Position numbers and translations under genes: made by a program. The notes below the pieces were generated by a model. It saw only the letters and a list, made by a program, of their open reading frames with translations, was not told the DNA's origin and did not search any database. 64,000 nt of DNA from Rhodamnia argentea. Taxonomy: Eukaryota > Streptophyta > Magnoliopsida > Myrtales > Myrtaceae. The stretch spans positions 21,817,294 through 21,881,293 of the forward strand of contig NC_063155.1 of the NCBI RefSeq assembly GCF_020921035.1, read 5' to 3'. Positions 3,341 through 48,184 of this stretch are shown here, one piece after another (position 1 is the first letter of the stretch; every line of letters begins with the position of its first letter).

Positions 3341-4905
3341 TCAGCCACGTTTCCATAACGCCACCACCGCAGCCAATGAAACCCGAGAAGATCCGCCGTC
3401 ACTCAAGGCCTCCAGCACGCCGTCTCTCGCTGCCAAGACCCGCTCTCTGACCGCTTTTCCTTCTCCCGAGCCCGTCATCAAGTCGGTGACCCGCTTGGCC
3501 AACTCGTCCGCGCTCACGAACCTGTCCTCGCCCGACATGCTCAGAGGGAGCGCCAGGGCGGCCTCCTCCACGAGAAAGTTCCTGTTCACCTTCTGCTCCG
3601 CGTAGAGAGGCCAGGCCACCATTGGCACCCCAGCGCGCACGGCTTCGATGGTCGAGTTCCAGCCACAGTGGGTGACGAACCCGCCCACCGAGCCGTGACT
3701 CAGCACCTGTATCTGTGGCGCCCATGAATTCACCACCATCCCCCTCTCTCTTGTCCTCTCCAAAAATCCCTCCGGCAAGAACTTCTCTAAGCTCGTGTCG
3801 TCATCGTCTTTCCACGCCGATGTTGATTTTGCGGACTCATCCTGCGGCGGAGGCCGCACGACCCACAAGAATCTCACCCCGCTTCTCTCCAAACCTGGAC
3901 ACAAAGTGTTCTATGGTCAACTCCATTCTCGTAACCAAAAAGTGTAGTCAATCACTCGCTTCTCATAAACAAGACGATTGAATTTGAATCGCGTGATGTG
4001 ATTTTTGCATCACATACTTGTTATTACCAAAGCTTACCTGAGGCCATCTCCTTCAGCTGTGCGGCGGAGAACCTTCCCTCGCTGCCGAAACACAAGAACA
4101 CGATGCTTAGGCTCGGTTGCGAGTCGAGCCAGCTCAAGCACTCGTGCCTTCTTTCTCTCTCGTCACCACCGTCTTTGTCGTCGCCGTCGACCTTTGACTC
4201 AACCAAAGGCCCCACGGTAAAAATAGGGGGAGTCGGGAAGTCCGGCACGCATGATCCTTCTTTGATGGTACGGATGATCCGAGTCTCAAGCGACTCGCAC
4301 GTGTTAACAATGATGCCGGACGACGAGATCATGTTCCTGCAAGCATCCAAGAAGTAGCCGTAGAATCTCCCGCCCCGGTTAAGCATGCCGGTTGGCATTT
4401 CCAAGGCCTTGATCGGCGGCAACCCAGGTATTTTCACGATCTCGTCTCCAAGTTCCTTGAAGCCCTTGGTGGTGCTCCCATGGAGGGTCGGAAAATGGAG
4501 GAAGACGGCGAGGGCAACGGCGCCCGAGGTGAAGAAGTAGTAGGTCGGGATGCCGAGGGCGGCCGCCACAGGGAAGGCGGCGTCTGAGAAGACGTCGACG
4601 ACGAGGGCTCGGAGGTCCGCGGCGGCGGTGATGGCGACGAGGGCGAGGCGGAGGTTGGAGGTGTCACGGCGGGCGAAATCGAAGGGCGTCTCATCGTGCT
4701 CGGTGGCGGCGGATGGAAGGTGGAGGACAGTGATGGAAGCGGAGTTGGCGGCCGCTGCTGGGGCGGCCGCGGCGTTCGAGGCAGAGGAGAGGATTATAAT
4801 GATGGAGAGGCGAGGGTGGTGTTTGTGAATGAGGCGTCCGAGCTCGAACATGGCGACTATGTGACCCCTCAACGGCGACGGATAGAGGACTATGGTCTCC
4901 CCCAT
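3341..4905 (-). CDS. UDP-glycosyltransferase, UGT88-like, 473 aa, two exons
   Basis: Coding exons on the minus strand are 4905-4038 and 3894-3341, split by a 143-bp intron (phase 1). The product transfers a sugar, probably glucose, from a UDP-sugar to a small acceptor such as a phenolic or flavonoid. It is a family 1 enzyme expected in the cytosol. Visible features: N-terminal LYPSPLRGH with catalytic His15, a likely partner Asp104 in VVDVF, and a full 44-residue PSPG box at residues 347-390, starting at [10 protein letters not shown], containing HCGWNS and ending in the AEQ typical of UDP-glucose users. Length matches the family. The N-terminus resembles the UGT88 group; the acceptor is not predictable. 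Exon 1 is strongly GC-rich compared with its surroundings. The gene looks intact. Confidence 0.9.
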
Positions 4906-4998
4906 GTTTTCGTGCGTGGTACCTTAAGGCTGTTTTTCGTTTTTCCACTGCTCTTTCTATTACCGTATGCCTGCCTACGCATGAACGTCGAAACACAG

Positions 4999-7977: not shown

Positions 7978-9962
7978 GGGAAAAGTACATTAGAAATGCC
8001 ATAACTTTTGTATGGCGTTCACTTGAGTGACATAACTTTCAAAACGTTCACTTGAGTGTCGTATCGGAGCAAAAACATTCACTTGAGTGCTATTTTTGCC
8101 GGAAAAGCTGACGTGGACATTTTCACTATTATTTATTAATTTATCGGTACTACGTGGATTTTCTTTACATTTTTTTAATATTTTATAAAAATTTCTTTAA
8201 TTTTTTATTCATTTTAATGTTTTTATTTTTATTTTACTTATTTAATATTTCAAAAAAAAAAAGAAAAAACCCTGGTTTCTACGGTGGTAGGTATTTCATG
8301 GCCCATCGAGACCGTCATGGCTCACTACCCAAAAAAATTGGAGGCCGCGATAAGCCATCGCCTGTCCCATCATTACTGACGTCATCGCGTCGCTGTTCCG
8401 TGGCGAGGGCACAAAGCTAGATATGGCCGGTTCGGGCCCAACCGCGTTCCACAAAAGGTAGAACCAGTAATTTTCGGGTCTGGTTCCGTTTCCGGTTCGA
8501 AGAATCGTCGGTTCCGAGCCTAACAGCTCTTTCCCCGTGCCTCACCCTTTTTTATATAAAAAAAAAATTAAATCTCTAATTGAAAGCCGGTTTCAGTTTG
8601 AACAGTGTGATAGGGTTTCGGGATTGTCAAAAACGCAACGGAATATAATTCTAAACCCAAACCCTAGACAAGATCCATGCGTATATTGAAATCTATAGGA
8701 GTTCAAGACATACCCTTTGCAGATACTAATAAATTGACGATCGGTTGTGTCTAGATTAGTGCCTTTTACGTTGCGCCTCTACCGGTATCCACACACACGA
8801 ACTGAAGTCTCCAACGATCCAAGTGCTAGCTTATAGATCTTGGAGCTTCTCTTGCTATATTGCCTTTGATCTTCGAGACTCTCACAAAGATCTGAGAACA
8901 GAGAACAATTTTCTGTGTTTCCCCCTCTATTCTCCTTTGGAATAAGACTCTATTTATTCCAATTGGCGTATCTAGGGGTTTTTTCCCTTGTTTATATATA
9001 TATATATATAGCCTCAATATTTACGCATAATAAAGAAGTGAGGTCGGGTGATTCGGACCCACTAAACCGTCTATCTCCAATCGTGCGTTCAATCGTTATC
9101 TTATAACTTGCACGATCGCGTAGATATTTAGAATATGAGAATAAATTAAAATCTACTTCTTAAGTAAATCAAGACGCGGAGAAAATATGAATTCGGTTCG
9201 CTTTTGTTTGCGATCCTTAAGTTCACTAAACATTAGCGGTGTGCTCAAAACTCTTTTTGGCCCACAAGTCACAAACGGTCTCTAGCAACACATTATGAAT
9301 ACCTAAGTATAGTAAAGGTGGTTTTTCGACACAACCCAATCCACAACTAATGTTAGAGCATCAACCTTGATTAGTTCTTAGGGCGGACCGTTAACACCGT
9401 TGGCTGGCTCAACGGGCTGGTTCCGAGCCCCCGAGCCCATTTGGCCAGGTCTACGCAAAGCTCTTACCGGATCTAGGCGAGGGCTTCGCGCCCTTTTCGC
9501 CCAAAGGCCCCCCTCGGCAGCCGATCGTTGCGGCCTCACCGGCCTAGGGGGAGCCGCGGCAGCCGAAGCTGCGACGGCCGTTACCCATGGCCGTCGCGGC
9601 CTCGTTAGCCGAAGGCAAACCGACCCCGGCATTTGGGCCGGTGGTGACCCTCGTTGACCACCACCGAGAAAGCAAGGGTTTTACCTTTTTTTTTTTTTGA
9701 AAATATTCAATAATTAAAAATCCAAAAAATAAAATCTGTACAAAAATAAAAACTAATGAAAATTTCCATATATACATTAAAATATTCAAAAAATTGGTTA
9801 GTTGGTGCCATGTCACTGGAGCACATGCGTCCACATAAGCGTTGGTATTTAAGTGAATGATTTTTAAAAGTTATAGCACTCAAGTGAACATTTTTAAAAA
9901 AGTTACAACATTCAAGTGAAGCACCGTACAAAAGTTATAACACTTCTTAGTGTATTTTTCTT
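7978..9962. mobile_element. Non-autonomous Mutator-like element with 9-bp target duplication
   Basis: The two ends are inverted copies: one begins GGGAAAAGTACATTAG and the other, read on the minus strand, AAGAAAAATACACTAAG. Both continue with a block carrying ATAACTTTTGTA and repeated CACTTGAGTG motifs. The element is flanked by a perfect 9-bp direct repeat CAAGTCACT at 7969-7977 and 9963-9971, the Mutator target-site length. No transposase is visible. The interior holds a piece resembling 5944-6093, a 'ccggttc'-rich block (8423-8525), LTR-retrotransposon-like sequence (about 8610-9370) and a GC-rich block (9380-9660). The terminal repeats are diverged, so the insertion is old. Confidence 0.75.
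8610..9370. mobile_element. LTR-retrotransposon-derived fossil segment inside the Mutator-like element
   Basis: This block has the look of a plant LTR (probably copia-type): non-coding, moderately AT-rich, with stretches seen in many plant LTRs. No paired LTR, primer site or coding part was found, so it is a solo or captured relic. Family assignment is from memory of typical LTR text and is tentative. It is broken and old. Confidence 0.3.
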
Positions 9963-10349: not shown

Positions 10350-11725
10350 TCACCAGGCACTGCTCGCTGTCCTCCTCATTGACTTGAACTTCTCGGCAGC
10401 CTTCTCTGCCTTGGTCGGCAGTTTCCATTTCATCATCATCTGTCACCGTCGCAACATTTTTAGCTCTCGGAATGTTCACATAAAAAGGACTTGCAGTGGT
10501 CGTGTCTGAATTGATGCAAGTTCATGCCTATAGGGAAATGTTCAGACAAAATTTTTACCTCCTTCCTGCGTTTATGCTCGCTCTCCGTCTGCGCGGAAAG
10601 GCGAAAAGTATAGGATAGTGAGATTGTGTAGTGAAGTAAATGAATGCAAAGGATCAAATCTTTTTTACCAAAATCTTTTTGAGCTTCTCATTCTCTTCTT
10701 TAAGTTGATTGAGTTCTACTTCCAACTCAACTGTGTATGCCTGCACGAAACGCATTGATTTATCAATGACACAATGTTGTCAATTTCGCATTATGTAGGT
10801 TCGATGTGGGGTGATTTTGGAAATACGACAAGGTCACCTGTTTCCTGGCTCGAGATCTCGCAGCCGATTCCCGGTTTTTGATCATCCGTCGCTGCCTTCG
10901 CTCAATCACTACTTCTGGTGGACCGTCGATTATCCTCCGGCTCTTCAGCCCCACCGCCTCCGCCAAGCTCTGGCATCGCTCGTTCATGACACTACTCGCA
11001 CATTCCCCCATGTACCTGGCGGTGGGCGGGTACATTTGGAACCCGGGGTATCCATTGCCCGGGAAGTTGTTCCCGCCGCCTTGAGGCGTGTTGGGGTATC
11101 CATACCCGCTCGCACTTCTCATCCCGAGTCCTGCGTCCAAAGATGGAGAAGGGTCCATCAAGTTCCTCTTGTGAACAGGCGGCTGCGGTGGTGGAGTCGC
11201 CTTAGGCAGGGGAGACTCTTGCACAACCCCGGCTTTGACCAGGAAGTCCTCCAAGGTCATCTCGCCGAAGGTTTGTTGCCGCCTAGGCGGTTCATGGTCG
11301 TTGAGGATGGTGTTGTTTTCGTTACTCAGGGTGCGGCCCTGGCCCTTGTGTATCTCGTCCCACACCTCGTCCACAGTCTTGTTGCAAAGCGGGGTCGGGA
11401 TCGAGAATGACCCTTGTCTCGCCAGAGACGATTGGCCAGCCGCATTTGTGTTAGCGCGAGGAGCCTCATTCTGGCACGGCAACGACTGGTTTTCGTCGAC
11501 ATTCCAAATGCTCGCTAGGAACTCGTCCATGTTCATCGAGCCGAAGGTCTTGCCGCTTCTGTACTGGATCTCATCAAGGGTGAGCGACAGGATCGAGTTT
11601 TGTTTGCGGAGAGATGACGACGACGGCTGCTCCGTGAGCGGTCCCCCCGTTGGCAGTTGCCCCGTGAACGGCGGTTCTAATTTGAGGTCGTCGCAACCGA
11701 CATTTTCCACTCCGGCAACTTCCAT
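10350..11725 (-). CDS. Group A bZIP transcription factor (ABI5/DPBF type), 359 aa, four exons
   Basis: Coding exons on the minus strand are 11725-10838, 10740-10669, 10588-10559 and 10439-10350, all joining in phase 0. The protein carries the conserved blocks of the ABA-response factor group: C1 around residues 39-54 (KQNSILSLTLDEIQ) with NMDEFL after it, C2 around 101-127 (LARQGS, then KTVDEVWDEI), and C3 around 150-168 (QQTFGEMTLEDFLVKAGVV). C1 and C2 contain the Ser sites that SnRK2 kinases phosphorylate in this family. The basic region is about 275-296 (NRESAARSRARKQ), followed by a short zipper with Leu302, 309 and 316. The C-terminus ends KSMRRTASSAW, the Arg-rich C4-type tail. Such factors bind ACGTG elements and drive ABA and seed or stress genes. 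It looks intact. Confidence 0.9.
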
Positions 11726-11758
11726 TTTAAATCAATTGCTCAAAAAAAAAATTTAAAT

Positions 11759-13366: not shown

Positions 13367-13860
13367 CCGGTCCTCCCCTGCCCATAAGTAAACAAACACT
13401 GAAGAAAGCCTACGTTGTCTGGTCTGGTCTGGTCTGGCCTGCCCAAAAAAAAAAAATAATAATAATAATAATAATTCAATTTTAAGAGAGGGACCAAAAT
13501 ATGGATGTCCGAAATTAGTTTATTAATTTGTGTGCCTAATAAGAGGAAAAACCCGATCAGGGACTAAATATTCGCCCCGTTTTCGAATATGGCTGTAACG
13601 TTCCTTAACTTATTGAGTTGATGAAAATAACCTCGAAAGATTCGAATAAGCAAAATTACGGCAGAAAATGATGGAATATGCTATTTTATTGAAAATGCAA
13701 TAACCGCATATTGTCGTGAAAGTACGAGACTGTCCCTATCAATCAAAACGATGATGTTTTTGCTCCATTACCTTAAGATTGATAAAATGCATTACATTGA
13801 TGGATCTAGATTAAATTTATCTACATTGAAGGTAATTTTACCCTCTTTCATCAATTGTAC

Positions 13861-16800
13861 CATTAATAAAGCTCGAAAAATGGTTATTTTGGACCATTTA
13901 AATTTTATGTTTGTATCTAAAACTATTTGACGAGTAGAAATAGCAATAGCATTAATAACAAAACATAGTTATATATTCAGATAACTACTTAGCATTATAA
14001 TCACTCAAATTTTGGACAAATCTGTCAATAGGATTAATGCACCCAGATTTACGTTAACTGCTCAATTTATGACAGCGATCCGATTTACCTATATAAGTCC
14101 ATCAATACAATAAATGTGCCCAAATTTCACGTGGACTATTCAATTTATGAGACCAATCCGATTCGATTCATATAATTAATTCGTCATTTGTTTTGGCTTG
14201 TTTTAAGGGAAAAAGGTTATGCAACGACATTCAAGTCAAACTTCTATGGTCTAATTGTCAAATCTAATATATAAATATGCAAGGAAATATTTTGAAAACT
14301 TTTAAGTATTTCATATTACTTAAAAATTCATCTTACACGTGCACTATTAATGAAGTCCTGATGAGAGCTACGTCGGACCATTTAAATTCTATGGTGTGTC
14401 TAAAATTATTTGAAGGGTAGAAATAGCGCGAACCTTGACAAAATAGTATGTTTATTTATTGAGATATTCACTTAGGATTATAATCGCTCAATTTTTTTTG
14501 AAAAATCATTCATTAAAATGAATGCACCCAAATCTTTCTATGAAGAAGATTTCTTTTGCTTAAAAAGAACCCAAATTTACTTGTACTGCTCAATATCTGA
14601 TAGTGATCCCATTCATATATATAAGCCCATCAATAGGATGAATGAGCTCAAATTTTATGTGGACTATTCAATTTATTAGAGCAATCCGATTCGATTCATA
14701 TAATAAATCCGTCGGGGTTGTTTGTTTCGGCTTATTTTAAGGGAGAAAGTTATTCATCGACCTTCAAGTAAAACTTGTATGATCTAATTGCGAAATCAAA
14801 TATATAAATATGCAAGGGAATATTTTGAAAAGCTTTAAGTTTTTTGTATTACTTAACAAAATCAAATTACACACGAACTATTACTGAAATCTCAATGAGA
14901 GCTATTTTTAACCATTTAAATTTTATGGTGTATCTAAAATTATTTGAAGGTAGAAATAGCACGAGCCTTGACAAAAGAATATGGTTTATTCATTGAGATA
15001 TCCACTTAACGTTATAATTACTCAATTTTTTTGAAAAATTCATCAATAAAATGAATGCGCCCAAATTTAAGTGGATAGCGATCCGATTCACATATATAAG
15101 ACCATCAATACAATGAATGCACCCACATTTTACGTGGACTATTCAATTTACCAGAACAATCCGATTTGATTCATACAATAAATCCGCCAGGGTTGTTTGT
15201 TTTGGCTAATTTTAAGGGAGAAAGTTATTTATCGACTTTCAAGTCAAAATTGTATGATCTAATTGCGAAATATAATATATATATATATATATATGCAAGA
15301 AAACAGTTTGAAAATTTTTAACTATTTCATACTACTTGAAAAAATAAATTACACATGGACTATTAATGAAGTCTCAATGAGAGCTATTTTTAAATGTTAT
15401 GGTGTATTTAAAATTATATGAAGAGAGGAAATAGCGTAGGGTTAATATCAGAAAAAAAAAAACTCCAAACTAGTACAATTGTGACAAATTTAGCCTAAAT
15501 TATTTTTCTGACCACGAAAAATTCTAAATTGGTATGTTTGTGATAAATTTACCTCACATTATTTTTTTGACTATGTAAAATCCCAAACTGGTATACTTGT
15601 GACAAATTTACCCAAAATTATTTTTTTTTACCACCAAAAATCCTAAATTGATATACCTGTGACAAATTAATCCCAAACTGGCACACTTATAACAAATTTA
15701 CCCTCCGTTAGTTTTTATTGAGTTAATACAATGAAAAATCCCAAATTGATATACATGTGATAAATAAATGGTCAAATAGCTACACCCGTTAACTATCATG
15801 TGCCATCTAACTTAACAATTTAACGGTAAAATTTAATAGAAACTAACGAAGGGTAAACTTATCATAAGTGTAATCGTTTATGGTAAATTTATCATAAGCA
15901 TACTAGTTTAGGATTTTTGGTGGGCAAAAAATAGTTTGAGGTAAATTTACCACATATGTACCAGTTTAGGATTTTTTATGGTAAAAAATAGTTCGAAATA
16001 AATTTGTCACAAGTATATCGGTTTGGGATTTTACGTGTATTAACCCAATAGCACAACCTTTGACAAATGAGTATGTTTATTTATTGAGATATTCACTTAA
16101 CATTATAATTACTCAAATTGTTTGACAAATTCGTCAATAAAATGAATGCGCCCAAAGTTTACGTGCGACTACTTAATTTATGATAGCGATCCGATTCACA
16201 TATATAAACCCATCGATAAAATGAATGTGCCCAAATTTTACGTGAACTATTCAATTTATGAAAGCAATCCAATCCGATTCATATAATAAATCTGCTATGG
16301 TTGTTTGTTTCTGCTTATTTTTAGAAAAAAAGTTATTCATCGACCTTTAAGTCAAACTTGTATGATCTAATTGCGAAATCTAATAGATAAATATACAAAG
16401 AAAATTTTGAAAAGTTTTAAGTATTTTGTATTACTTAGAAAATCAAATTGCACATGGACTATTAATGAAGTTTTGATGAGAGCTATTTCGGATCACTTAA
16501 TTTTATGGTGTATCTAAAATTATTTGAAGAGTGGAAATAACACGAGTCTTAACAAAAGAACATTTTTATTTATTGAGAAATCCACCCAGCATTATAATTG
16601 CTCAAATTTTTTACAAATTCATCAATAAATTGAATGCGCCCAAACTTGGACCGCTCAATTTATGATAGTGATCCGATTCACATATGATAAGCCCATCAAT
16701 ACAACGAATGCACTCAAATTTTACGTGGACTATTCAATTTATGAGAGCAATCCGATCTAATTCATATAATAAATCCGCTGAGGTTGTTTGTTTTGGTTTA

Positions 16801-19785
16801 TTCTAAGAGAAAAAGTTATTCAGGGACCTTTCAAGTCAAACTGCTATGATCTAGTTGCGAAATCTAATTTATAAATATGCAAGGAAATATTTTGAAAAGT
16901 TTTAAGTATTTCGTATTATTTGAAAAATCAAATTATACATGGATTATTAATGAAGTCCCAATGAGAGCTATTTTGCACCATTTAAATTATATGGTGTATA
17001 TAAAAGTATTTGGCGAGTGAATATAGCTCGAACCTTAACGAAGATTATGTTTATTTATTGAGATATCCACTTAGCAATATAATCACTCAAATTTTTTACA
17101 AATCCGTCAATAAAATCCCCCAAATTTACGTGGACTGCTCAATTTATGATAGCAATCCAATTCACATATATAAGTCCATCAATGGAATAAATGTACACAA
17201 ATTTACGTGGACTATTTAATTTATGAGAGCAATCCGATCCGATACATATAATAAATTTGTCGGGGTTGTTTGTTTGGCTAAAGGGAAAAAGTTATTCATC
17301 AACCTTCAAGTCAAACTTCTATGATCTACTTGCAAAATCAAATTACACATCTAATGAAGTCCCAATGAGAGCTATTTTGGACCATTTAATTTAATAATGA
17401 TAAGTTTTAAGTATTTCATGTTACTTAGAAAAATCAAATTACACATGGACTACTAATGAAGTCCCAATGAGAGCTATTCTGGACCATTTAATTTTATGGT
17501 GTATCTAAAATTATTTAAAGAGTGGAAAGAGAGCGAGCCTTCACAAAAGAGTATGTCTATTTATTGAGATATCCACTTAGCTGCTCAATTTATGATAGCA
17601 ATTTGGTTCACAAATATAAGTCCATCAATAGAATGAATGTGCCCAAGTTTTAGGTGGACTATTCAAGTTATCAGAGTAATCCAATCCGATTCATATAATT
17701 AATCTATCACAGTTGTTTGTTTTGGCTTATTTTAAGGGGAAAAAGTTATTCATTGACCTTCAAGTCAAACTTCTATGATCTAATTAAGAAATCTAATATA
17801 TAAACATGGAAGGAAATATTTTGAAAAGTTTTAAGTTTTTCGTATTAGTTAAAAAAGCAAATTACACGTGGACGATTAACGAAGTCCCAATAAGATCTAT
17901 TTTGGACCGTTTAGATTTTATGGTGTATCTTTTGACCAAAATCAAAACTTTGGTGTATCTAAAATTATTTGAAAAGTGGAAATAGTGCAAGCCTTAGTAA
18001 AACAGTATGTTTATTTATCGAGATATCCACTTACCATTTTAATTGCTCAAATTTTTGACAAATCCGTCAATAAAATGAATGCATCCAAATTTGCGTGGAC
18101 TGGTCAATTTATGATGGTGATCCGATTCACATATATAATTCCTTCAATAGAATGAATGCGCCCAAATTTTACGTGGATTATTTAGTTTATCATAGCAATC
18201 TGATTCGATTCATATAATAAATCCATTAGGGTAAAATTGAAAAAAAGTCACTCATCCACCTTCAAGTTAAACTCGTAGGATCTAATTGTGGAACGTAATA
18301 TATAAACATGCAATGAAATATTTTAAAAGGCTTTAAGTATTTCGTATCACTTGAAAAATCAAATTACACATGGAGTTTTAACGAAGTCCCAACGAGAGCT
18401 ATTTTGGACCAATTAATTTTTATTGTATATCTAAAATTATTTGAAGAGTGAAATAACGCGACCCTTAGCAAAAGCGTAAGTTTATTTATCCACTATAATT
18501 GCTCAAATATTTGACAAATCCGTCAATAAAATAAATGCACCCAAACTTACGGGGATTGCTCAATTTATGACAGCAATCAGATTCCCAGATATAAGTCCAT
18601 CAATTGAATGAATGTGCCCACTTAAAATGGGCTATTAAATTTATGAGAGCAATCCGATCCAATTAATATAATAAATCCATAAGGTTTTTTTTTTTTTTTT
18701 GGGGGTCGGACATGAGGTTTGTTTGTTTGGGCTTATTTTAAGGGAAAAAATTTATTCATCAACCTTCAAGTCAAACTTCTATGATCTAATTGCGAAATCT
18801 AATATATAAACATGCAAGGCAATATTTTGAAAATTTTTAAGTACTTCGTATTACTTAAAAAATCAAATTAATGAATGCGCCCAAAGTCATATGGACTATT
18901 AATGAAGTCTCAATGAGAGCTATTTTCGTCCCTTTAAATTTTATGGTGTATCTAAAAGTATTTGTAGAGTGAAAATAGTGCAAGCCTTAACAAAGGAGTG
19001 TGTTCATTTATTGAGATACCCAGTTAGCATTATAATCGCTCAAATTGTTGACAAATCTGTCAATAAAATGAATGCGCCCAAAATTTCTTGGACTGGTCAT
19101 TTTTTTATAGCAACGTGGCCCCAAATTTTACGTGGACTATTCAATTTATAAGAGCAGTTCGATCCGATTAGTGTAATAAATCAGTCAGAGTTGTTTGTTT
19201 TGACTTATATTAATGGAAAAAAGTTATTCATGGATTTTCAGCCAAACTTTTATGATCTAATTGCCAATCTGATGCTCGAACATGCAAGGAAATATTTCGG
19301 AAATTTTTAAGTAGTTTGCATTAATTAAAAAATCAAATTTATGAATGGGCCCAAATTCACGTGGACTAGTAATGAAGTCCCAATGAGAGCTACTTTGGAC
19401 CTATATTTTATGGTGCATCTAAAATCATTCGAAGAGTAAAAATATCGCAAGCCTTAATAAAACTGTATGATTTATTTGTTGAGATATCCTCTTAGCAGTG
19501 ATAATCGCTCAATTTTTGAAAAATCCATCAATAGGTTGAACATGACGAAATTTACACTGGACTATTTTATTTATGATAGCCATTCGATTCACATATATAA
19601 GTTCATCAGTATAATGAATACGCCCAAATTCATGTGGATTATTCAATTTCTGAGAGCAATCTGGTTCAATTTGTATAATAAATCCGTCGGGTTTTTTTTT
19701 TCAGCTTATTTTAAGTGCAAAAAGTTATTCATCGACCTTCACGCCAAATTTCTATAATCTAAATGTGAAGTGTGATACTTAAACA
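13861..19785. repeat. Tandem array of about 11 diverged ~485-bp monomers
   Basis: A landmark reading GAAGTCCCAATGAGAGC or close to it recurs at about 14352, 14885, 15368, 16467, 16952, 17355, 17458, 17881, 18383, 18904 and 19374, with an earlier truncated unit from 13861. Spacing is 470-533 bp, apart from one interval enlarged by a 608-bp insertion and a shortened/partially duplicated pair near 17.4 kb. Within each monomer an approximately 77-bp block (TCAATA-AATGAATG..CCCAAATT..CGTGGACT) occurs twice. Units are clearly diverged and carry many small indels, so the array is old and not recently homogenised. Short open frames inside it repeat the same peptide (LLRYPLS) only because the DNA repeats; I do not regard them as genes. 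Confidence 0.85.
15439..16046. mobile_element. Foldback Mutator-like element inserted in the tandem array
   Basis: A 608-bp element with long imperfect inverted arms (roughly 300 bp left, 200 bp right). Each arm is built of short direct repeats of the type 'GTGACAAATTTA ... AAATCCCAAA'. It starts GGGTTAATA and ends TATTAACCC. The flanking 9-bp repeats AATAGCGTA (15430-15438) and AATAGCACA (16047-16055) match at 7 of 9 positions and belong to the monomer text, which shows insertion into an existing monomer. No protein is encoded. Confidence 0.7.
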
Positions 19786-20830
19786 TAGGCAGAAGAACAC
19801 CAAAAGTGTCAAAGTTTGTGTACGACGCTCACTTTGATGCTATTTTTTTTTAAATTAAGGACCAAATTTTTTGAAAAATAATTATCTCTACCGGAAATCT
19901 TATGTGGTATTTTTTTTTATTAATAACTTAATCCTAATTGGCTCATCAAAGGATCCCATTCAGTAATAAGAAAATAGGGTTAATGTTACAAAAATTTCAA
20001 ACTAGTACACTTATGAAAAATGCCCAAAACCATTTTTTTTAACACAAAAAATCCTAAACAAGTATACATGTGAGAAACTTATCCCAAACTATTTTTTTTG
20101 GCCACCAAAACCCTCAAATTGGTACAATTGTGACAAATTTACCCTAAACTAAATTTTTTGACCACAAAAAATCTCAAACTAGTATACATGTGATAAACTT
20201 AGCCTTTAGTTTTCGTTAAATTCGCGTTAACATCATGAAAAACCCCAAACTAATATATCGTAAACAAACAGAAAGTAAAAATCACAAATTAGTACACCCG
20301 TCAACTGTTACGCGTCATCCAACTCGACAATTTGATGGTATAATTTAACGAAAAACTAACAGTGTAAATTTATCACAAGTGTATCGGTTTAGGGTAAATT
20401 TATCACATGTGTACCAGTGTGGGGATTTTGGTGGTCAAAAAAATAGTTTTGGATAAATTTATCACAGATGTATCATTTTAAAATTTTTATGATTAAAAAA
20501 TAGTTTTGAATAAATTTATCATATGTGTGTACCGGTTTTGAACTTTTGTGATATTAATCCTAAAAAAATAAAAGTTAATAAAATAAAAAAATGAACTAAA
20601 AAAAAAGGCAAAAGAAAAGGGTAGGTTTGAGAGGTGAGGGCTTGTGCAGCCCTCGCGCCGCCCCTGTGTAGTGGCCAGCGACCCCGCCGACAGCAAGTGA
20701 GGCCTTGCCAAGGTCAGCGGGGCCTGGCCGTCGCTGGACGAGGTCAAGTCTCTCCGTGGCTGGGCGACAGCGACCTCGCCTAGTTTGGAGTTCTTACCTT
20801 TTTTTTTTTTTTTTTTTTTGGGTCATAAGT
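19786..20830. mobile_element. Truncated Mutator-like element with GC-rich interior
   Basis: The left side begins with a terminal-repeat-like stretch (AGAACACCAAAAGTGTCAAAG, then TACGACGCTCACTTTGATGC) that resembles the ends of the 7978-9962 element. The interior has a foldback insertion (19977-20561), then a GC-rich block of CCTCGC/GGCGAGG-type words (20640-20780) and a T run (20799-20819). The matching right terminal repeat was not found, so the right limit is a guess. Confidence 0.4.
19977..20561. mobile_element. Second copy of the foldback Mutator-like family
   Basis: Same termini (GGGTTAATG at the left, ATTAATCCT at the right) and the same internal short repeats as the copy at 15439-16046, about 585 bp. 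Flanking 9-mers AAGAAAATA (19968-19976) and AAAAAAATA (20562-20570) match at 8 of 9 positions. Non-coding. Confidence 0.6.
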
Positions 20831-21597: not shown

Positions 21598-23304
21598 TTA
21601 GTGTACAGCCATGGCCGTTGCCGGTTTGTCCAGAAGGTGTTCTCTGTTCAGAAGAGCCCAGAGAATCGCCTCGCATACCCCCTTGTAATGCACAATCAGA
21701 TGTCCGCCATCGGGAATTTCGTGATACCTGATCCAGGGTAGCTTTCCCGCAACATACCGCTGAAGTCGAAAAGGCACTACCTTGTCTTCATAGCCTTGCC
21801 AGATATGAACAAAGCTTTCATTCCGTGGGAACGGATTGCTTAAATCCAGCGGATCAAATTCCCAGTTGCCAAAACTGACCATAAAGTCATTTAGGAGCGT
21901 GTCGAACACCTGCCTTCTCCGTAGTTTATCCTGTTCACAACGGCCTTCTCTGGTCAGAAAGAAACCTTGAGAATGGGAAGAGATGATCACAACAGCCACA
22001 GCAAGGATTGGCCATGGACTCAAAGGACGCCACCCTTTTTTTTCTTAAACTCTGCTCTTAGCTGATAGAATTCATCCTTGCGTGCGCGAATAGACAGAAC
22101 ATGGGCCATTCAGGCAAACCTTCACATGCACATTGGAAAGACAAAGTACCTTGGTGAGCATTGGGAATCCAGGCGTCTTCTTGAGGACATCGACATCTCG
22201 ATCATTAAAAAAAGTCGGGTTCTTCTCCAAGAAAGTAGTTGAAGGGAGCCATTCTCGGGTCACCCACCAGTAGAGCAATTCGGGGGCGTAATTCGCTAGC
22301 CAGAGGGTCCACTGAATGAGCTTTCTCCTGTAGTCCAGCCTAGTCAAATTCTCAGGAAGAGATTTCCAGGAATAGTTGATGACTGGAACTACTAAAGCCA
22401 TGCCTTTAAGTCTGCACCACCGTGCACTGTAAGAGTTTGTTTCCAGGAGGGGGCTGCAAGTGATTTGAAAGTTATAACACTTGCCTATGTGGTATGTGCT
22501 TTAGGCAACTCCAGGCAGGGTAGGATCCCATCGAAACCCCGATCACATAAAACTTGGGCCCCAGTTTTAATTGATCTGCAAGTTCCTCAATGTCGTAAGC
22601 TTCACTCTTTGTCGAGCGCTTCAAGTTAGGATCACTGTCTCCGTAGCCAGCTCGATCAAATTGCAGAAAGTATATACCCAACTTCTCTATCTGTTCCTGC
22701 AAGCTTAAAACTTGAATATCCTCTGTTCTAGGATAAACCTGATGGCTTTCTTGTTTGCGTAGTCTTACTATGATTTTTTCGGGCCGAAAAATAGTGTTAC
22801 CATTAACTGGGCTGTACATTCCATTGCAAAGATAACAAAGTTTAACAATATCATGGCACAGACGAACTCATCATCAGGTTATTGCATTCTCGTATACGCT
22901 AAATATTTGGGAAGAAGTTACGGAGAGTGGTTCTAGATGTGCTTCTATGTGTACTTTTGTTCCTTGTTACGCTCTCTGTTTCGGCGACATTCAACATTAT
23001 CTCTCCTACAGTCTAATCACATCAGATGCAATGCAAGGGGGATTCGTGCTCGTACTTGGGGTGCCTGAAAACTCATCTCCTTGGAGCTCCCAAAGCCGTG
23101 CACTACAATGACCTTGTAGTTCGACCTTTCTCTAGCGACGCCTCTCTCCCTGTAAGCCAGATACCTTCCGTCGCGGAGCCTGATTCTTGTACAGGTAGTC
23201 ACAGTTTCTGCAGGGAGTACAGCATCCCGGGGAGGAGGAAGCTGCGCGGCCTTGTAAAGCACCATCAGACCCATCAGCAAAACCGCCACCGCTCTCATAA
23301 TCAT
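21598..23304 (-). CDS. Alpha/beta hydrolase superfamily protein, 351 aa, paralogue of the first gene
   Basis: Coding exons on the minus strand are 23304-23056, 22696-22485, 22411-22150 and 21930-21598. Exon 2 is 212 bp, exactly as in the paralogue, and exon phases are identical. The triad is complete: GVSMG (Ser138), WQGYEDKVVP (Asp290) and DGGHL (His318), with VVHGF as oxyanion strand. A hydrophobic N-terminus (about residues 2-18) suggests membrane association. Intron 2 (22484-22412) starts GCAAGT, a textbook GC-AG donor. The ATG follows a leader-intron acceptor by two bases, as in the first gene. The C-terminus is about 10 residues longer than in the paralogue. Substrate unknown. The two copies converge across 19 kb. 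Confidence 0.88.
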
Positions 23305-27877: not shown

Positions 27878-30550
27878 CTATCCAAAAGGAGGGAAGTGAT
27901 TTTGAGCAGATTGAAACACTTGCAGATCCGTCGTCGTTTGGCACGACCCGTCGTCATTGATCGAGTTCCTGAGCATGAAGAAGTATCTAAGTTCATCGCA
28001 AGAACAATCCGTTAAAAATTATTTGCTCTATGCATAGGTGAGCCAGAACAACCAGAAGCTGTAAGTAGTCGGAATTCTCAGCTTTTACGAATATCCTGAG
28101 AGATTGCATGAAATAGTGACGATAGATTTGATCTTACTCTCGTGGACGAGACGCCCATAGCGAACTTAAGGCTCGTAACCGGCCGTAGTACTCTCCGATC
28201 ATCAAGAAACAACGGGTCGCCTGCCTTACCGTCAATATCCGCCACAACTGATGAAGGGTTTGCTGCCTCAAGTTGTCAGCCTGCAGTGTTAACCATCTTC
28301 AACATCATCCTTTTGAACTTACCAAAATATAAATCTTGAACAAAATTGTCACCGAAATTTCGGTCACAAGGATGGAAGTTATTCTTTATACAACACTAAT
28401 CTTTTCTTGCTGAGAAAGCACTTTGAAAGTGGAATCTCCTTTGAGAGTATCTTTTCAAGAACATCACTTGATATAGACTTGCACTTGCCACCTTATGACC
28501 TTCTTCAAAGTCTGGACATCACCCATCAGCTAATCTGCTTATCTAATGTAATGTCATTTCAGAAAGTACTAGCTTTCAAGATATAGTCATGTTCATGGGA
28601 TCATAATTATATTTTGTTAGTCTCTTTATACTCATACCCGTCGAACTCATTCTCCCGAACGCGCTCGCAAAAACCTCAAATTTTTAATCAAATTTTTAAT
28701 GGCGTGTCGAGTGCTTGTAGGTACCTGGAGAACGAAGCTTTCGAGGTTGGAGAGCTTGCCAAGGGCGACAACCATCAGTTGCATGCTCTCGACAAGGGGC
28801 CCGCCGGCCACGGTGTCGACAAGCGAATGTTGGAGCTGCTCGAGGCCTTGCGAGAGCGCCTCCTCCGCCTGTTGCGACGATTGCTGGAGGCCGTAGATCC
28901 CCATCAGCTGTTGTTCCGTCAATGGGTCTAAATGGGGTCTCAACATCTGAAACAAGCTACTTGAATCGATTAGCAACCAGCTAAGATTTTAGATTGAAGT
29001 CTTTTTTTTTTTCCATTTTTATTTTCTTTGATAGAGATAGATTGGAGTTTTGTATTATCATGCAGAAGAGGCTGTAGACGAATTCTGGATTTTCTGGGGG
29101 TAGCATCGTCATTTGGCCCATGGACTTTAGCCGTAAATACCTTTGTACCTCATCTCATTCGGACAATAATTAACGCTAAACTAGATTTTAGAGGAATACG
29201 GTCAACGGCTGTCGGCTGAATCGTCCAAATCATAGGATAACGATGGGTGAAATTTACTTTCTTCAAATCCTTATTTTTTTGCAGCTTGTTCAAATTATGA
29301 TCTTAAAACGATTGCTTCTCAAGATAAATAGTCATGAGAATATAGCAAAATAATAAGAAATGAACGTGAAATTCTATTACCGACCTTGATGAGATCGGAG
29401 GGCCGGAACCCACCCATCCAGAAGAAGCAGCGCTCGGCGGAAGAACTCCACATGCCGGTGAGGAGGTGGAAGACATCGGTTCGGGCGGCGACCCCCTTGA
29501 GCCTGAAAATCTCGTCGTAGTGGGAAATGTAACCATCCACGATCATCCTCAGATCGCTGTCCGACAAATGCGCATTCAATGCGGTCCGGAGCTCCGACAT
29601 GTGCCGGTGATCATTGTCCAACCACCTTGCATATTCCAAATCGAATGCCGCAGCCCCTATCGATAAAAAGCTCGGTGTTTAGTCCGATCATAAAGATGAA
29701 AAATGAAGGCTTTCAACTAAGATGGCCAAAAGCATACTGCTGCTTTAAACTCACCAGAGCTGACGTCTCCGCCAGCGCCGCCATAAGCGCCCAAAAGCAA
29801 GCCGTGCGATCGTGTGCGCTGAACCTCTTGCTCTAATTGAGTAAGCTTAATCCTGCTTGATTCAAGCTGCTGTACATAAGCCTGTTTGGAAGAAAAAAAA
29901 TTCCTCAATCAAAGTTTATTAAAGAAGGATACATGTCAGAATACAAGACAGAAATCGAGAATTTGATGCTAGAAAATGTGCACGAATGTACCTTTTTCCT
30001 CAGACGACTTTTCCTTGCTGCTTCCCTATTTTGAGCTAAACGTCTCAATGTCTGCAATCAATTAACCAAAAAATGCCGTTCTTTCAACCCCAACAAGTAT
30101 ACACTCTATACAATCTACAGACACATATAAGCTGTCTGTCCTTCAAAGGAACATTATTTAGTATACAATAGTAAATTAGTGATTTACGGACCTTGGCATC
30201 CAGATTTTTCTCGGAGGTCGGACCAGCTGATCCTTTCTTCTGCAAAATCGAACCGATATTATGTCACCGAAATGAGAAGAATCAACAATAGAATAGAGAA
30301 ACCCCAATAGCTAGAAAAAGACTTATGAAGCATGATATATTTCCTCCTTGTATAATGATGCTTGTTTCAGTTGGGTCAGTAACTAAGAGATTCAATAAAA
30401 AAAAGGCCCTCTCTTTTGTGATTCTCTTCTATCCAAACAAAGTGTGAAATGGAGCTTTGACAAAGAGAAATTGTACAGTACAAAATGGCCAGGTGGGCAA
30501 CAAATACTATCATGACTCAAATCACACACAAATTTGCTGTCATGCAAATG

Positions 30551-41475: not shown

Positions 41476-42738
41476 CTACTTATACTCAAACATTACTTCT
41501 AAGTCGACATATTCCCGCATGACACATACAATAGCTGAGGTGAAACTACCCAGCAACTGATATTCTTTACAGGTTATGAGGTCTGAGACTACTCCATGAA
41601 TAACCAACTTCTTGAGGTTCGGGCAACGTTTTAGCATTAATTCGACCCAGTCTGAAAAGAGATCATTCAGAAAAGTCCATCCAAGCTCCAAAACGACCAC
41701 ATTTTCAAAATGACAAGATCCATGAAAACCATATTGAAGCATTCCATCTCTCAAGTCGCAATTCAACGACAGATGGGTAAGCTGTGGAAAACGAAGAGCA
41801 ATGGTTTCCATTCCCACGATCTCATCCTCATCATCAAACATTACATCCCAAAGTCGCAGCCTCCTCAACTTTGCTGATTTTGAAATCATCTGCAAGAACT
41901 TTGAGGATGTAATTGATAAGTCCCTAACATCCACTATCTCAAGATTATCGACAGTGTCACCGATATCAAGATGTAGAACGCCTACGTCGTCAATAATGAA
42001 ATGCTTCAAAGTCCCCTTTCCAATGAGTTCGAAAAGCTCAAGGAAGCACCTTTTTAGGTGCAAACATTCAATGTTATCTGCTTCCAAAACGAATTTGTCC
42101 AAACTTGTCGCCTCAATGTAAAAGCACCTCAACGTAACACTACTGACCTCAACTGTGACTTGTGCATCTGACATTGCAATGTCTGGACTAATGAGATCCA
42201 ATTTCTCAAGCTTCGGACACGTGCTGACTAAAAGACTCAAATCCAATGCTGAGATTCTGACATAACTCAAAGAGAGGGACTTCAAGCCAGGAAACCTGCA
42301 ATAATTTGGTTCGACCCCCGAGACAGAACTATGTGACAAGACCAAAACCTCAAGCTTCTGCCTCCCGCAAATTTCGAGGATGTTTACATCTCCGGTCACC
42401 CGGACATCATAATGCAGGCTGCGCAATGTCTCCCTAGTGTACAAGAGCCAAGCCACCACCGCAGAAGCCGAAAACTCTTCATCTACATCATCCAATTGAA
42501 GCGAGAGACTCTGCAATTTGGCGGTCTCGAATATGGTTTGGGTTATCCAAATTCCTGCTTGATTGCTACCATAATCACGATAACCAGACCAATCGTTCAC
42601 ACTAAACGAGAGACTACGGAGATGCTTACGGCGGGCTTCTAGCCACTTCCGGCACGTCGCAGAAGCCACAACCACATCCCTGGCCGCGGCAAGTCGCGAC
42701 AGTATGTTCCCGATAACCTCAATTGGCAGGCTCTCCAT
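41476..42738 (-). CDS. F-box/LRR-repeat protein, At1g67190-like, 420 aa, single coding exon
   Basis: Intronless coding frame starting MESLPIEVIGNILSRL at the ATG at 42738. The open frame reaches to 42780, but its first codon is TTG, so 42738 is the start. Residues 1-40 are an F-box, which docks to SKP1/ASK in an SCF ubiquitin ligase; the rest is a run of imperfect leucine-rich repeats (for example LKSLSLSYVRISALDLSLL, LKHFIIDDVGVLHLDI, LEIVDVRDLSI) that would bind the substrate. Length and text closely match the single-copy family containing Arabidopsis At1g67190, including the ends NILEICGRQKLE and the C-terminal EVMFEYK. The substrate is unknown. The gene looks intact. Confidence 0.92.
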   Translation of the reverse strand: MESLPIEVIGNILSRLAAARDVVVASATCRKWLEARRKHLRSLSFSVNDWSGYRDYGSNQAGIWITQTIFETAKLQSLSLQLDDVDEEFSASAVVAWLLYTRETLRSLHYDVRVTGDVNILEICGRQKLEVLVLSHSSVSGVEPNYCRFPGLKSLSLSYVRISALDLSLLVSTCPKLEKLDLISPDIAMSDAQVTVEVSSVTLRCFYIEATSLDKFVLEADNIECLHLKRCFLELFELIGKGTLKHFIIDDVGVLHLDIGDTVDNLEIVDVRDLSITSSKFLQMISKSAKLRRLRLWDVMFDDEDEIVGMETIALRFPQLTHLSLNCDLRDGMLQYGFHGSCHFENVVVLELGWTFLNDLFSDWVELMLKRCPNLKKLVIHGVVSDLITCKEYQLLGSFTSAIVCVMREYVDLEVMFEYK

Positions 42739-44079
42739 GATAAACGCGTAGTCACCAAATATTTCTAGTCCTACCACCAATTAAACTGATTACTCCACAA
42801 ACACATTCGAGCACGCAGAACCTAAAATCCTCAACGGATCAAACAACGAACATAATTCCCGAACCCGAATGCGCTCATACCAAGTCCAAACAGTGCGCAA
42901 ACAGTGAGACGAAGACGACGATGACCATCAAATCCGTCGGATCATCGAATAGATGCTATTCTGCGCACTAGAGGATCGCAACGAAATTTAAAACTTGCAT
43001 CACTCGACTAACCAATGAATCGTGCCACGGTTCGAGGCGAATGGGACCTCGCAAGAAGAACGATTCGGCTTTCCAAGAAGGACTCACGGGGCAGTGAAGA
43101 TCGTCCCGTCAGGGCGTTCGACGATGTCGATGCAGAGGATGTTTCGTCGGAGGGAGAGAGAGAGAGAGAGAGAGAGACGAAGGATCGATTCATATTCATG
43201 TCACGGGGAAGCAATTCACTCGTGGGGGGTGGGTCGGGCGGGTCGGGTCGTAAAACTTCCGAGCGCGTTCGCGCCTCTTATTTTGATTTTTTTTTTTTTT
43301 TGCGATTTCTATGTCTGTATTTTAGCAAATAATTATCAGGAAAAATAATTTGCATGTTAATAATAAATAAGGTAAAATTCATGCTGTAGTTTTGCATTAT
43401 TAAAAAAGATTAAATTACCATGTATCGCGCGCACACTTCAATATAATTTGCGTTATATAATATAAGGTGAGAGAAAAATTTTATCTCTTTTATCGAAGGC
43501 AAATTATGCAAGCTCCAAATTCTATTGATACGAAAAAAATAATAGTTTCTTAATTTTTTCAACTTAATTAAATGTTTATTAATTCTTGTTGGCTTGTCAT
43601 CTGTTTAATATGGTTGAGCGTAATGAATCAATTAGAAATGAATCAATCGATTATTGGAATCATTTACGGTTAGTTAAATGTAAAGCTAAATCTAAGCCTA
43701 AACTTAAAATATGTATTTTAAATTTAGCTATAATGCAATATGGTTCGTTGAATATATCATTAACGAATAAAATGCCAAATCAAAGAAAAAAAAAAGCTAC
43801 CTATCTAATGATTGGCCCGGCTGAGAATCGGATCGGTCTGGGTTAATTCCCGATCCTTGAAACCGGAAATCGGACTTCTTCTAATCCGGCTCCCCATTTC
43901 AAGATAGGATCAGACCAGACCAAAAACGGATCACGTCCGGTGTTTAAATCTTCTTCTTTAACTCCCCCGTCAAGTCGGGTCGGGCCAAGCACTCGAGCAG
44001 CTGAGCTCCCAAAATTGCGCGTTGACATTGTTCCCGTTGCATCCGTCTGGTTTTTCACTCTCTCGCGCTTTCTCCATCC
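42739..44079. promoter_or_regulatory. Divergent promoter region of F-box and TM9SF genes
   Basis: The two genes are head to head, 1.34 kb apart. A GA microsatellite (43152-43176) lies on the F-box side. The 43330-43800 part is very AT-rich with nothing recognised. GC-rich sequence just before 44080 is the leader of the TM9SF gene. No TATA box is obvious. Confidence 0.4.
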
Positions 44080-47000
44080 ATGGCGTTGGAGACCCTCCGT
44101 CTGAATCTCCTCCTCGCGCTGTTCGCGATCATCTCGCCGGGGAATCGGTTCGCCACGGCGTCTCCAGAGGATCATCGCTACAATGTAGGAGATCCCGTCC
44201 CTCTGTTCGCCAACAAAGTGGGTCCGCTCCACAACCCCAGGTATCTTCGCGCGAGCTCGCGCTCGATGTTCTGCGTATGAACAGCCATTCCGTTGTTCCT
44301 GAATTAGTTGCGAATTGTTTCTGGATCGCACGAGTTAGGTAGTGACGCGACCAATGATTTAGCTGCTGTCGCTCTTTGAAGTTGCGAGGATTCAATTGAG
44401 CGAGGTGGATTTAGTTTAGAGCTGATCCTTACTTGTCTTGTCATCAATGATAGTATCGGTGCTTCTTGTCATCCCGTGTTGCTAGTGGAATGTCAATATA
44501 ATTACAAGTTAGCCAATTTCGAAGTCAGCCATACTCGTGTTGTATCATGTCGGGTTGTAGTTGGGGTTTCTCTTAGTAATACTGTGTCGCATGCGAGTGT
44601 CATGTCTACAATTGCCTAATTTCGTTGCTGTTTCTGCTTGGTTGTTCCTTGCAACACTCAAATTTGAGGAATTTGCAGAATGTTAGTACGAGGCCTTTCT
44701 TTCTTTCTTTCTTTTTTTCGTCCCTTTTTTCCAACAGCTTTTGAGCCAATGTGTTCTTGTGCTGCAGTGAGACCTACCAATACTATGACTTGCCATTTTG
44801 CCGCCCAGGTTAGCTTTTTGATTTACTCATGTTTGCAATGGCAAGGATCAACCACTAAACAAGTTAAATCTGCACCTACATGAGGCACATTATAATTTTA
44901 TTGTAGTTTTGTCCTATTGTATTAATCTGATCAGGAGCTGCAGTTGTGTATTTGAAAGATTGTTTAATGAGCCTCTTACTGACACATTATTTCCTGGTGT
45001 TCTGTTGGTACCTTTGCCTGATGGAACGTCACTCATGATTTTAGCCCATGCATCAATGCTACTTATTCATTATCCAGTAAATCTAACAATAGAGGCTTGT
45101 GCTTCGTGTTATTGATCTTTAGCTATATCCTTTGCAGACCCACTTATCTGGAAGAGGGGATCTCTTGGGGAAGTTTTGAATGGTGATCGCTTGACCAATT
45201 CCTTGTACGATTTGAAATTTCGGGATGTTAAGGATGGGGAGATTCTCTGCGAGAAAAAACTCGAAATTAGTGATGTTGCGAGATTAAGGAGTGCTGTAAA
45301 TGAAGATTTTTACTTCCAGATGTACTATGATGATCTTCCAATGTGGGGGTTCATTGGGAAAGTGGAAAATAGTAGCTGGAGTCCTGGCATAAAGGGACCT
45401 AGGTATTATTTGTTCAAACATGTGCAATTTGATGCCTTTTACAATGGTGACCAAATAGTAGATATACATGCTTTCAGTGACCCAAATCATGTTGTCGATA
45501 TAACCGATGATATTGAGGTTAATGTAAAGTTTACTTATTCAACTTTCTGGAATGCAACCTCAATTGGTTTCGAGGAAAGAACGAGCAAATTTTCAAGGGC
45601 TTCATTACTGCCAATCCACCGACGGATACACTGGTTCTCACTCATCAACTCTACAGTCATCTTGATTCTTTTGATGGGTTTGTTGACACTTCTTTTCATG
45701 AGGCGCATGAGAAATGACCTAAGACAGTAATGCTCTTTCACTGATATTTCTTCTAACTCTACTGTCAATAATGACAGTTTGTTCCTTCTGACATACATCT
45801 GGATGTATGTGCTACAGATACTCTGCTGGAGACGACGAAGAAGAAAATGATGTTGCCAGGAAATATGTTTGTGGCGAATTATTCAGACCTCCATCCCATT
45901 TTCCCCTGTTTTGCGCAGTCTTGGGCTCAGGAATGCAGTTATTCACTATGTAAGCTCCTTTAAGCATCATATATGACCAAGTGCATTTGTCGCTTGCCAC
46001 CAACTTTCAGCATCTTTTGTCGTATGCTGCCTCAATTGGCTGTGAGAATAATGTTTGTCATGCATCTTTGAATTTTCTGAATTTAACTATTAAATGTCAG
46101 CTAGATTTACTACAAGAGAAACAGTATTCAGCAATATGCAAATCTCTCCTGTAAATTTGCAAATTTTGTGTTCTGGAGATTTATTTCCTAAGACTAATTC
46201 ACACTGCAGTGGTTGTAGGGAACTTTTCAGGATAAGTGCAGAGTTAGTCCTTGAAGTTATGGTCATTGGTCAATTGAGTCCTTATCGTGTTATTTTGGTC
46301 AATTAAGTCCTCAATGTTTTTAATAAAGTGCCATCAAATCCTCCATCAGTGGATTTTCGACACTGGAAGTCCTGCGTGGTCCTCAGGTCCTCGGCCGCAT
46401 GGCATTGAGAAAAGGCCACGTAAGAGACACGTATAATTTCGGTGTCGGGAAACCACTGATGGCCTGCCTAGAACTTGATTAGACATTTTTTCAAACTCTT
46501 AATGACTTAAGTGACCAAAATAAGAAGTTAAGGGCTCAGTTGACCAATGGTCAAAGTGTTGAGGACCGATTCTGCGCTTTTCCTGGAACTTTTGGTTTGC
46601 ATATATCTTGCTGACACAGACAGATTGTCCTCTGAAGCATCTACCTAACAGTTATAAACTTTTGCTCAGGGTTTTTTTTTATCTCTCCTAGCATTCCTCG
46701 GTGTCCTCTATCCATACAGCCGTGGATCCCTATGCACTGCTTTGGTTCTGAGTTATATTCTCACATCTGTGGTTGGTGGATTTACTGCGACTTCTTTTCA
46801 AAGTCAATTACCTGAAACTGGATTGGTACTGAATCTAATTTTTTTGTATAGGTCAAACAGATTATGTGATGCTGGTTATTTTTTCATTGCTCAGTTATCC
46901 GATACAAATGAATTTGAACTTTCAGGGGTGGACTGTTCTCCTTACTGGCATAGTTTACCTGGGCCCAGTACTTGTGATAGCTTTTGTCCTTAATGCAATT

Positions 47001-48184
47001 TCCATGGCTTATGGAGCCACAGCTGCACTTCCAGTTGGCACCATTTTCATAATCACCTTCATTTTTATGCCAATTACCATGCTGCTGCTTTCCTTGGGAG
47101 GGGTCATACAACGCTTCTTCAGGACAGAAGTTCGTGCACCTTATGTCACGAGGAAAAGTTTGAGAGAGATTCCACCACTAGCTTGGTACAGGAATTTGCC
47201 ATGTGAAATGATTCTCGGAGGTCTTGTATCATTTAGTTCTGTTGTTCTGGAGTTATACGAGCTGCATAACACCCTTTGGGGTTTCAAGATCAGTGTTCTT
47301 CCAGGCACTTTGTTTGTGACATTTGTCATCCTCATCGTAGTGACAGCTGTCCTTAGTGTTGTTCTGACATACATCCAGCTTTCATCCGAAGACCATGATT
47401 GGTGGTGGAGGTATGTTCTTTTGCCCAAGTGCCAAAGATGAAAATACCCGTCATCTGGTGTTCTTCAGGGGAAGAATATTCTAGTGCGAAACGGAACGTT
47501 TTATATTGAGATTATTCTTCCTGTTCAGTAGTATTACAAGATCTTAGATAAAAGTAGTCAGCTGGTAGTGGATAAGACTTATCAGGTGCATATCGAAGGA
47601 GTGATAAGGGTTGAAAGTTGCAATGTTGCATGTGTATTCAGCTCACAGTGCATTCTCTCGGTTGCTGGCTCACTGTCAGTGAGCCTCTGTCCCTCCCAGA
47701 AGGCATAGAAAATCTGGAGTTGCCAGACTAAAATTTTGTTTTTTAATTCTGTTTCATTCCACTGCATGCTAGAAGGGCATATTAAAGGATTATTACGACA
47801 GGCTGTTCGATTAGTGTTTGGATTAAGTAATTTTGATAGTTAACTTTTTGGAAATAGAAAAGGGGTAAATAAAATAGACACAAAATCTACTTGGTGAACT
47901 GTAAAGTGTTCATGCTTCTCCATCTGTATGCGTGATTATGTTCATAACTTCTGCTTCTACAATGCAGGTGCGTATTTCGTGGGGGCTCAGCAGCCATATT
48001 TATGTTTGCCTATTGCATGTACTTCTACACAAGGTCAAACATGAGTGGCTTCTTGCAGCTATCGATTTTCTTGGGCTATAGTGCTTTAATGTGCTATGCA
48101 TTTTTTCTCATACTCGGTACAGTCAGTTTCATTACTTCGCTAATGTTTGTCTGCCGTAATTATGAAGCTGTGAAGAGTGAATGA
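44080..48184 (+). CDS. Transmembrane 9 superfamily (EMP70) protein, TMN5-like, about 593 aa
   Basis: Coding exons: 44080-44240, 44768-44808, 45138-45726, 45818-45949, 46670-46825, 46926-47410 and 47968-48184. It has an N-terminal signal peptide (about residues 1-27), a lumenal domain (SETYQYYDLPFCRP, LGEVLNGDRLTNS, DFYFQMYYDDLPMWGFIGKV), a first membrane span (INSTVILILLMGLLTLLFM), then eight further spans, with EIPPLAWYRN and EDHDWWWR between them. Clade I members (TMN1-5) sit in Golgi/endosome membranes. Most junctions agree in phase, but at exon 5 the given bases are one short: exon 4 ends in phase 2 and the exon 5 start GGTTTTTTTTTA (nine T) needs a tenth T to read through into the membrane span. 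A homopolymer error or a real frameshift are both possible. All else looks intact. Confidence 0.85.
46228..46584. mobile_element. Mutator-like MITE in TM9SF intron 4, 357 bp
   Basis: Flanked by a perfect 9-bp duplication GGAACTTTT (46219-46227 and 46585-46593). Inverted ends: AGGATAAGTGCAGAGTTAG at the left and, on the other strand, AGGAAAAGCGCAGAATCGG at the right, with further matching words (GGTCATTGGTCAATTGAG against GACCATTGGTCAACTGAG). No coding capacity. Confidence 0.75.

Follow-up and report, generated by a model that had tools for sequence, protein, structure and literature searches.

The window, a 64-kb stretch of DNA from Rhodamnia argentea, carries a tandem array of about 6 kb among protein-coding reading frames. 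Ten reading frames of the window were compared with Pfam, and seven of them matched a domain (Table 1), while the frames at 4024-4923, 22072-22500 and 1650-2015 remained unmatched. Frames with Pfam matches are found on both sides of the array, in agreement with the initial annotation, which had placed the array between genes. For the ferredoxin, the best solved relative is named chloroplast ferredoxin-3, a mark of plant DNA. Segments 1359-1576 and 22482-22699, about 21 kb apart on opposite sides of the array, match each other in inverted orientation (218 bp, 68%). These apparently belong to two related alpha/beta-hydrolase genes, with a Pfam match, a weak one, for the right copy only.

The array extends from 13862 to about 19815 and consists of eleven units in head-to-tail order, all on the plus strand. 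The consensus monomer is 489 bp long and AT-rich (G+C 31%), and the individual units measure 416-534 bp when the inserted element is left out, the last unit being truncated. The G+C content of the array, insert included, is 29.7%, against 41.7% in the rest of the window. In a self-comparison, long diagonals run at offsets of about 485 bp and multiples of it, one of them pairing 16169-18224 with 17581-19685; the initial annotation had named a lack of such diagonals as what would overturn its claim of about eleven head-to-tail units over 6 kb, and the claim passes this check. Within 13862-19785 there are 27 forward self-matches longer than 150 bp, and none of 50 dinucleotide-preserving shuffles produced any. 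A profile built from the unit and searched against both strands of the whole 64-kb window (E ≤1) matched nowhere outside 13869-19815 and only on the plus strand, which further supports the claim. TRF, the kind of tandem-repeat check that had been suggested, did detect the repeat, reporting only 3.1 copies at 16047-17581 under a period limit of 500 bp.

A landmark sequence recurring at 470-533 bp had been used to recognize the units. The landmark does recur, in 11 copies when up to four mismatches are allowed, and these copies are not distributed one per unit. Unit 1, starting at 13862, is without it, and unit 6 has an extra one, since the copies at 17356 and 17458 are only 102 bp apart and the former lies inside the partial duplication of that unit. 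With the extra landmark at 17356 excluded, the spacings run from 423 to 534 bp, together with one of 1099 bp, so that the range first given was too narrow. The 1099-bp spacing is explained by a 608-bp foldback element inserted inside unit 4, and the short length of unit 7 (423 bp) by a deletion of about 65 bp.

Table 1. Units of the array, the inserted foldback element with its target duplications, and Pfam-matched reading frames of the window.
Feature	Position	Strand	Remarks
Unit 1, left edge	13862-14351	+	landmark decayed; 13.9% from leave-one-out consensus
Unit 2, core	14352-14885	+	insertion of ~43 bp
Unit 3, core	14886-15367	+	
Unit 4, core	15368-16466	+	split by foldback element
Unit 5, core	16467-16951	+	
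Unit 6, core	16952-17457	+	additional partial copy of unit junction near 17327-17391
Unit 7, core	17458-17880	+	deletion of ~65 bp at 17581
Unit 8, core	17881-18382	+	
Unit 9, core by divergence	18383-18903	+	17 bp of sub-repeat at 3' junction, absent in units 1-8
Unit 10, right edge	18904-19373	+	14.6% from consensus; the 17 bp of unit 9 also at 3' junction
Unit 11, right edge	19374-19815	+	truncated at about unit position 445; most diverged, 19.4%
Left target duplication AATAGCGTA	15430-15438	+	by eye
Foldback-type transposon 1	15439-16046	.	608 bp, inside unit 4; ends GGGTTAATA...TATTAACCC
Right target duplication AATAGCACA	16047-16055	+	7/9 match to left copy AATAGCGTA; by eye
Glycosyltransferase (UDPGT)	3341-3910	-	Pfam
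bZIP (bZIP_1)	10763-11731	-	Pfam, below cut-off; domain cut at frame end
Alpha/beta hydrolase	22472-22867	-	Pfam, below cut-off
DOG1 domain	29319-29678	-	Pfam
F-box with repeats	41476-42780	-	Pfam
Endomembrane protein 70	46839-47441	+	Pfam
Ferredoxin	58954-59436	+	Pfam

The units differ in detail (Table 1), and in unit 11 the final ~25 bp match only weakly. The monomer also contains a nested sub-repeat. A motif of about 80 bp occurs twice in the consensus, at 150-236 and 227-318, the two copies being 82% alike. Using a profile of these two full copies, a third and decayed copy was located at the unit junction, scoring 18.6 bits at the 3' junction of unit 9 and 19.3 bits at that of unit 10. Because the other junctions score at most 5.8 bits, only these two units show the third copy clearly; 50 shuffles in which two-base steps were dealt out gave at most 5.4 bits. 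The right side of the array may have kept an older form of the monomer. Local conversion would be an alternative source of the 17 bp common to units 9 and 10, and the same appearance would be expected from it.

The element in unit 4 has arms made of tandem repeats of about 58 bp, inverted to each other, as is characteristic of foldback transposons. The consensus of the unit at the insertion point reads AATAGCGCG. Since the decayed target duplication AATAGCGTA / AATAGCACA lies within unit sequence, the array was in place before the insertion, and the transposon, a non-autonomous, foldback-type element, is a later guest. A second foldback of the same family lies at about 19977-20561, just to the right of the array; an alignment of 604 positions gives it 69.5% identity to the first. 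The outermost bases of this second element are ambiguous, and its target duplication, AAGAAAATA / AAAAAAATA, matches at 8 of 9 positions by eye. A target duplication of 9 bp is a mark of the Mutator superfamily; the duplications of the first (7/9) and the second element (8/9) were both read by eye, and a reading of 8 bp is also possible. The array unit has no significant match to either foldback (best E 0.14), and an origin of the array from the foldback arms was therefore rejected. In the available text of PMC4079207, the Tetris foldback and the TIR-220 satellite likewise combine a foldback carrying tandem repeats in its arms with a tandem array. Unlike that case, the array unit here does not resemble the foldback arms and the transposon arrived later.

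To describe the age structure of the array, all 55 pairs of units were compared, and identities of 72-85% were obtained, with 85.1% for the best pair. Averaged over all units, identity is 81.2, 81.2, 81.0 and 81.0% for pairs separated by one, two, three and four steps and then declines to 71.6% for the one pair that lies ten steps apart. For the eight core units, pairs separated by one, two, three, four and five steps average 83.2, 83.2, 82.6, 82.5 and 82.6%; the 2 pairs six steps apart average 80.8%, and the single pair seven steps apart is at 81.9%. Identity in the core is thus nearly flat with distance, and most of the fall seen over all units is caused by the edge units. In the maximum-likelihood tree, internal branches make up 4.2% of the total length, and ultrafast bootstrap values are at most 72% at every node, so that the tree is near to a star. 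These values bear out the earlier view of the array as old and too diverged for a young one, and they agree with a local amplification that has stopped.

Divergence from a leave-one-out consensus ranges from 8 to 19% among the units. One rate for all eleven was rejected, the counts being overdispersed (p 6e-5). Core units 2-9 share a single divergence of 10.3% (chi-square p 0.64), and edge units 1, 10 and 11 exceed the core rate with p values of 0.010, 0.004 and 2e-7, for a division into core and edge that was chosen after the branch lengths had been seen. The units share 237 pairs of non-consensus variants, against 186.5 expected if each unit had mutated alone (sd 12.5; highest value in 500 shuffles, 220). 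This excess is found chiefly in units 2-5, with units 3 and 5 as the top pair (13 vs 3.9 expected), which indicates that the star is imperfect and still bears the mark of some exchange or stepwise duplication among these units. Transitions occurred at 61 of 298 CpG sites versus 137 of 1281 other C and G sites, an excess that would fit methylated DNA. Plant sequences accumulate between 2.5e-9 and 6.5e-9 substitutions per site each year. At such rates, the corrected distance of about 0.11 would correspond, as a guess, to roughly 17-44 million years.

Several searches for coding and RNA signals were carried out. Substitutions by position modulo 3 numbered 178, 200 and 201 (p 0.34), showing no coding pattern. 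Against Pfam (E ≤1), a consensus unit translated in all six frames, each frame thus spanning one unit only, gave zero matches, and no domain was found in two edge reading frames. A coding origin was rejected on the flat modulo-3 counts together with the Pfam blank in the six frames of the unit. Neither Rfam nor a tRNA search gave a match anywhere in the window, and the one unit folded, unit 5, was no more stable than its shuffles, 19 of 100 of which did as well (z -0.99); an RNA gene or structured RNA was accordingly rejected. A bacterial promoter scan of 13800-14400 scored under its shuffles, a bacterial model being uninformative for a plant.

The array therefore has two features of satellite DNA, a single unit repeated head-to-tail and a non-coding sequence. 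It lacks a third, present-day homogenization by concerted evolution, as the near-star tree and the diverged units indicate, and was homogenized in the past at most. Taken together, these data make it probable that the locus is a small, local, satellite-like array which went through amplification in one episode, or a last round of homogenization, and has since decayed. A single burst and the end of a long homogenization would leave the same pattern, with the edges older in either case. The proposed course of events would begin with duplication of the ~80-bp motif within a longer stretch. A stretch of about 490 bp would next have been multiplied head-to-tail, for which unequal exchange involving sister or homologous chromatids is the simplest route and reinsertion of a rolling-circle copy at its place of origin another. 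Exchange would have held the middle units alike while the edges were left behind, and would then have ceased, the units since mutating mostly independently. The foldback transposon entered unit 4 once the array existed, as its target duplication shows. The array itself presumably has no role for the cell.

A close precedent is available for the pattern of core and edges. In the accessible part of the review PMC5615363, repeats at the centre of an array are reported to be better homogenized than those at its ends, and longer units to derive from shorter ones. The edge units studied here are likewise more diverged than the central ones. The present array differs from those in that text by having only eleven units and by a centre without any sign of recent homogenization.

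It is also conceivable, if unlikely, that the array is an outlying piece of an abundant satellite family, centromeric or subtelomeric elsewhere, that was left in or moved to a chromosome arm beyond the reach of homogenization. Old units with little recent exchange are the pattern expected of an isolated outlier, but the unit is absent from the remainder of the 64-kb window. Usual centromeric satellite units are shorter than 489 bp, which also counts against such a source. Dispersal of satellite repeats in euchromatin has a precedent in a beetle, where TCAST of Tribolium castaneum, according to the available portions of PMC3411249 and PMC5844308, consists of satellite-like non-coding repeats that also lie close to genes. 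TCAST is, however, an abundant family as those portions describe it, whereas the present repeat occupies a single place as seen in the 64-kb window. Among the eucalypt satellite literature matches listed, titles and the beginnings of abstracts contain no such unit, and the available parts of two genome papers on eucalypts or Corymbia do not mention one.

Somewhat more doubtful is the idea that the array is a decayed copy of a tandem repeat from within a dispersed mobile element, which might be of Helitron type or a retrotransposon carrying the repeat in its untranslated part. Tandem repeats of transposons can grow into satellites, as with a Drosophila foldback in the available text of PMC4079207, but the flanks of this array have no long direct or inverted repeats. 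Comparison of one flank with the other yielded at best two A- or T-rich runs, one of 24 bp (E 0.003) and one of 36 bp (E 0.04). An enclosing LTR retrotransposon was rejected because no LTR pair surrounds the array in the self-comparison of the window at E 1e-5, and a Helitron was rejected since the consensus has no clear terminal signature as judged by eye. The blank Pfam results for the unit and the edge frames, as well as the insignificant best match to the two foldbacks, also speak against this origin. With neither a transposon domain in the frames of the unit nor a flanking pair of long repeats, a dispersed element is unsupported within the window.

A more specific proposal, which we regard as improbable, sees in the array a fossil of concerted evolution whose arrest could be dated: homogenization would have ceased at one moment for all core units, perhaps through disruption of unit pairing by the foldback insertion in unit 4. 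Arguing against it, units 3 and 5, which flank unit 4, are the very pair whose shared variants exceed expectation the most, and exchange therefore once crossed the place of the insertion. Were the proposal nevertheless true, and were sister species found to have orthologous arrays, some carrying the insertion and others lacking it, the effect of a single insertion on homogenization would become measurable. Finally, retention of the array for a function, as an insulator, a small RNA source or an upstream regulatory region for the adjacent bZIP-like gene, is hardly credible: the array does occupy about 60% of the interval that separates the bZIP-like reading frame from the next long frame (from 21598), and variation is lowest at unit positions 31-60 (5.8% vs 11.3% overall), but the 16 bins jointly do not differ significantly (p 0.10), this low bin contains no CpG, coding and RNA-family signals were not found, and the core units decay at a single rate.

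The locus as favoured above, a local array amplified or last homogenized in the past, is an ordinary, old repeat of a known sort. It provides a clean example of the birth and decay of local arrays among plant genes, of modest importance, and its consensus monomer can be used as a probe for a satellite family, if any exists.

Two further repeats were observed elsewhere in the window. Segments 54270-55052 and 61236-61958 form a direct duplication of 0.8 kb (71% alike) of a gene that we take, by eye, to encode ribosomal protein uL1 (L10a). Segments 7980-8288 and 9660-9960 match each other twice in inverted orientation, over 110 and 138 aligned positions and at about 74% identity; these arms, separated by about 1.4 kb, are possibly the ends of another transposon.
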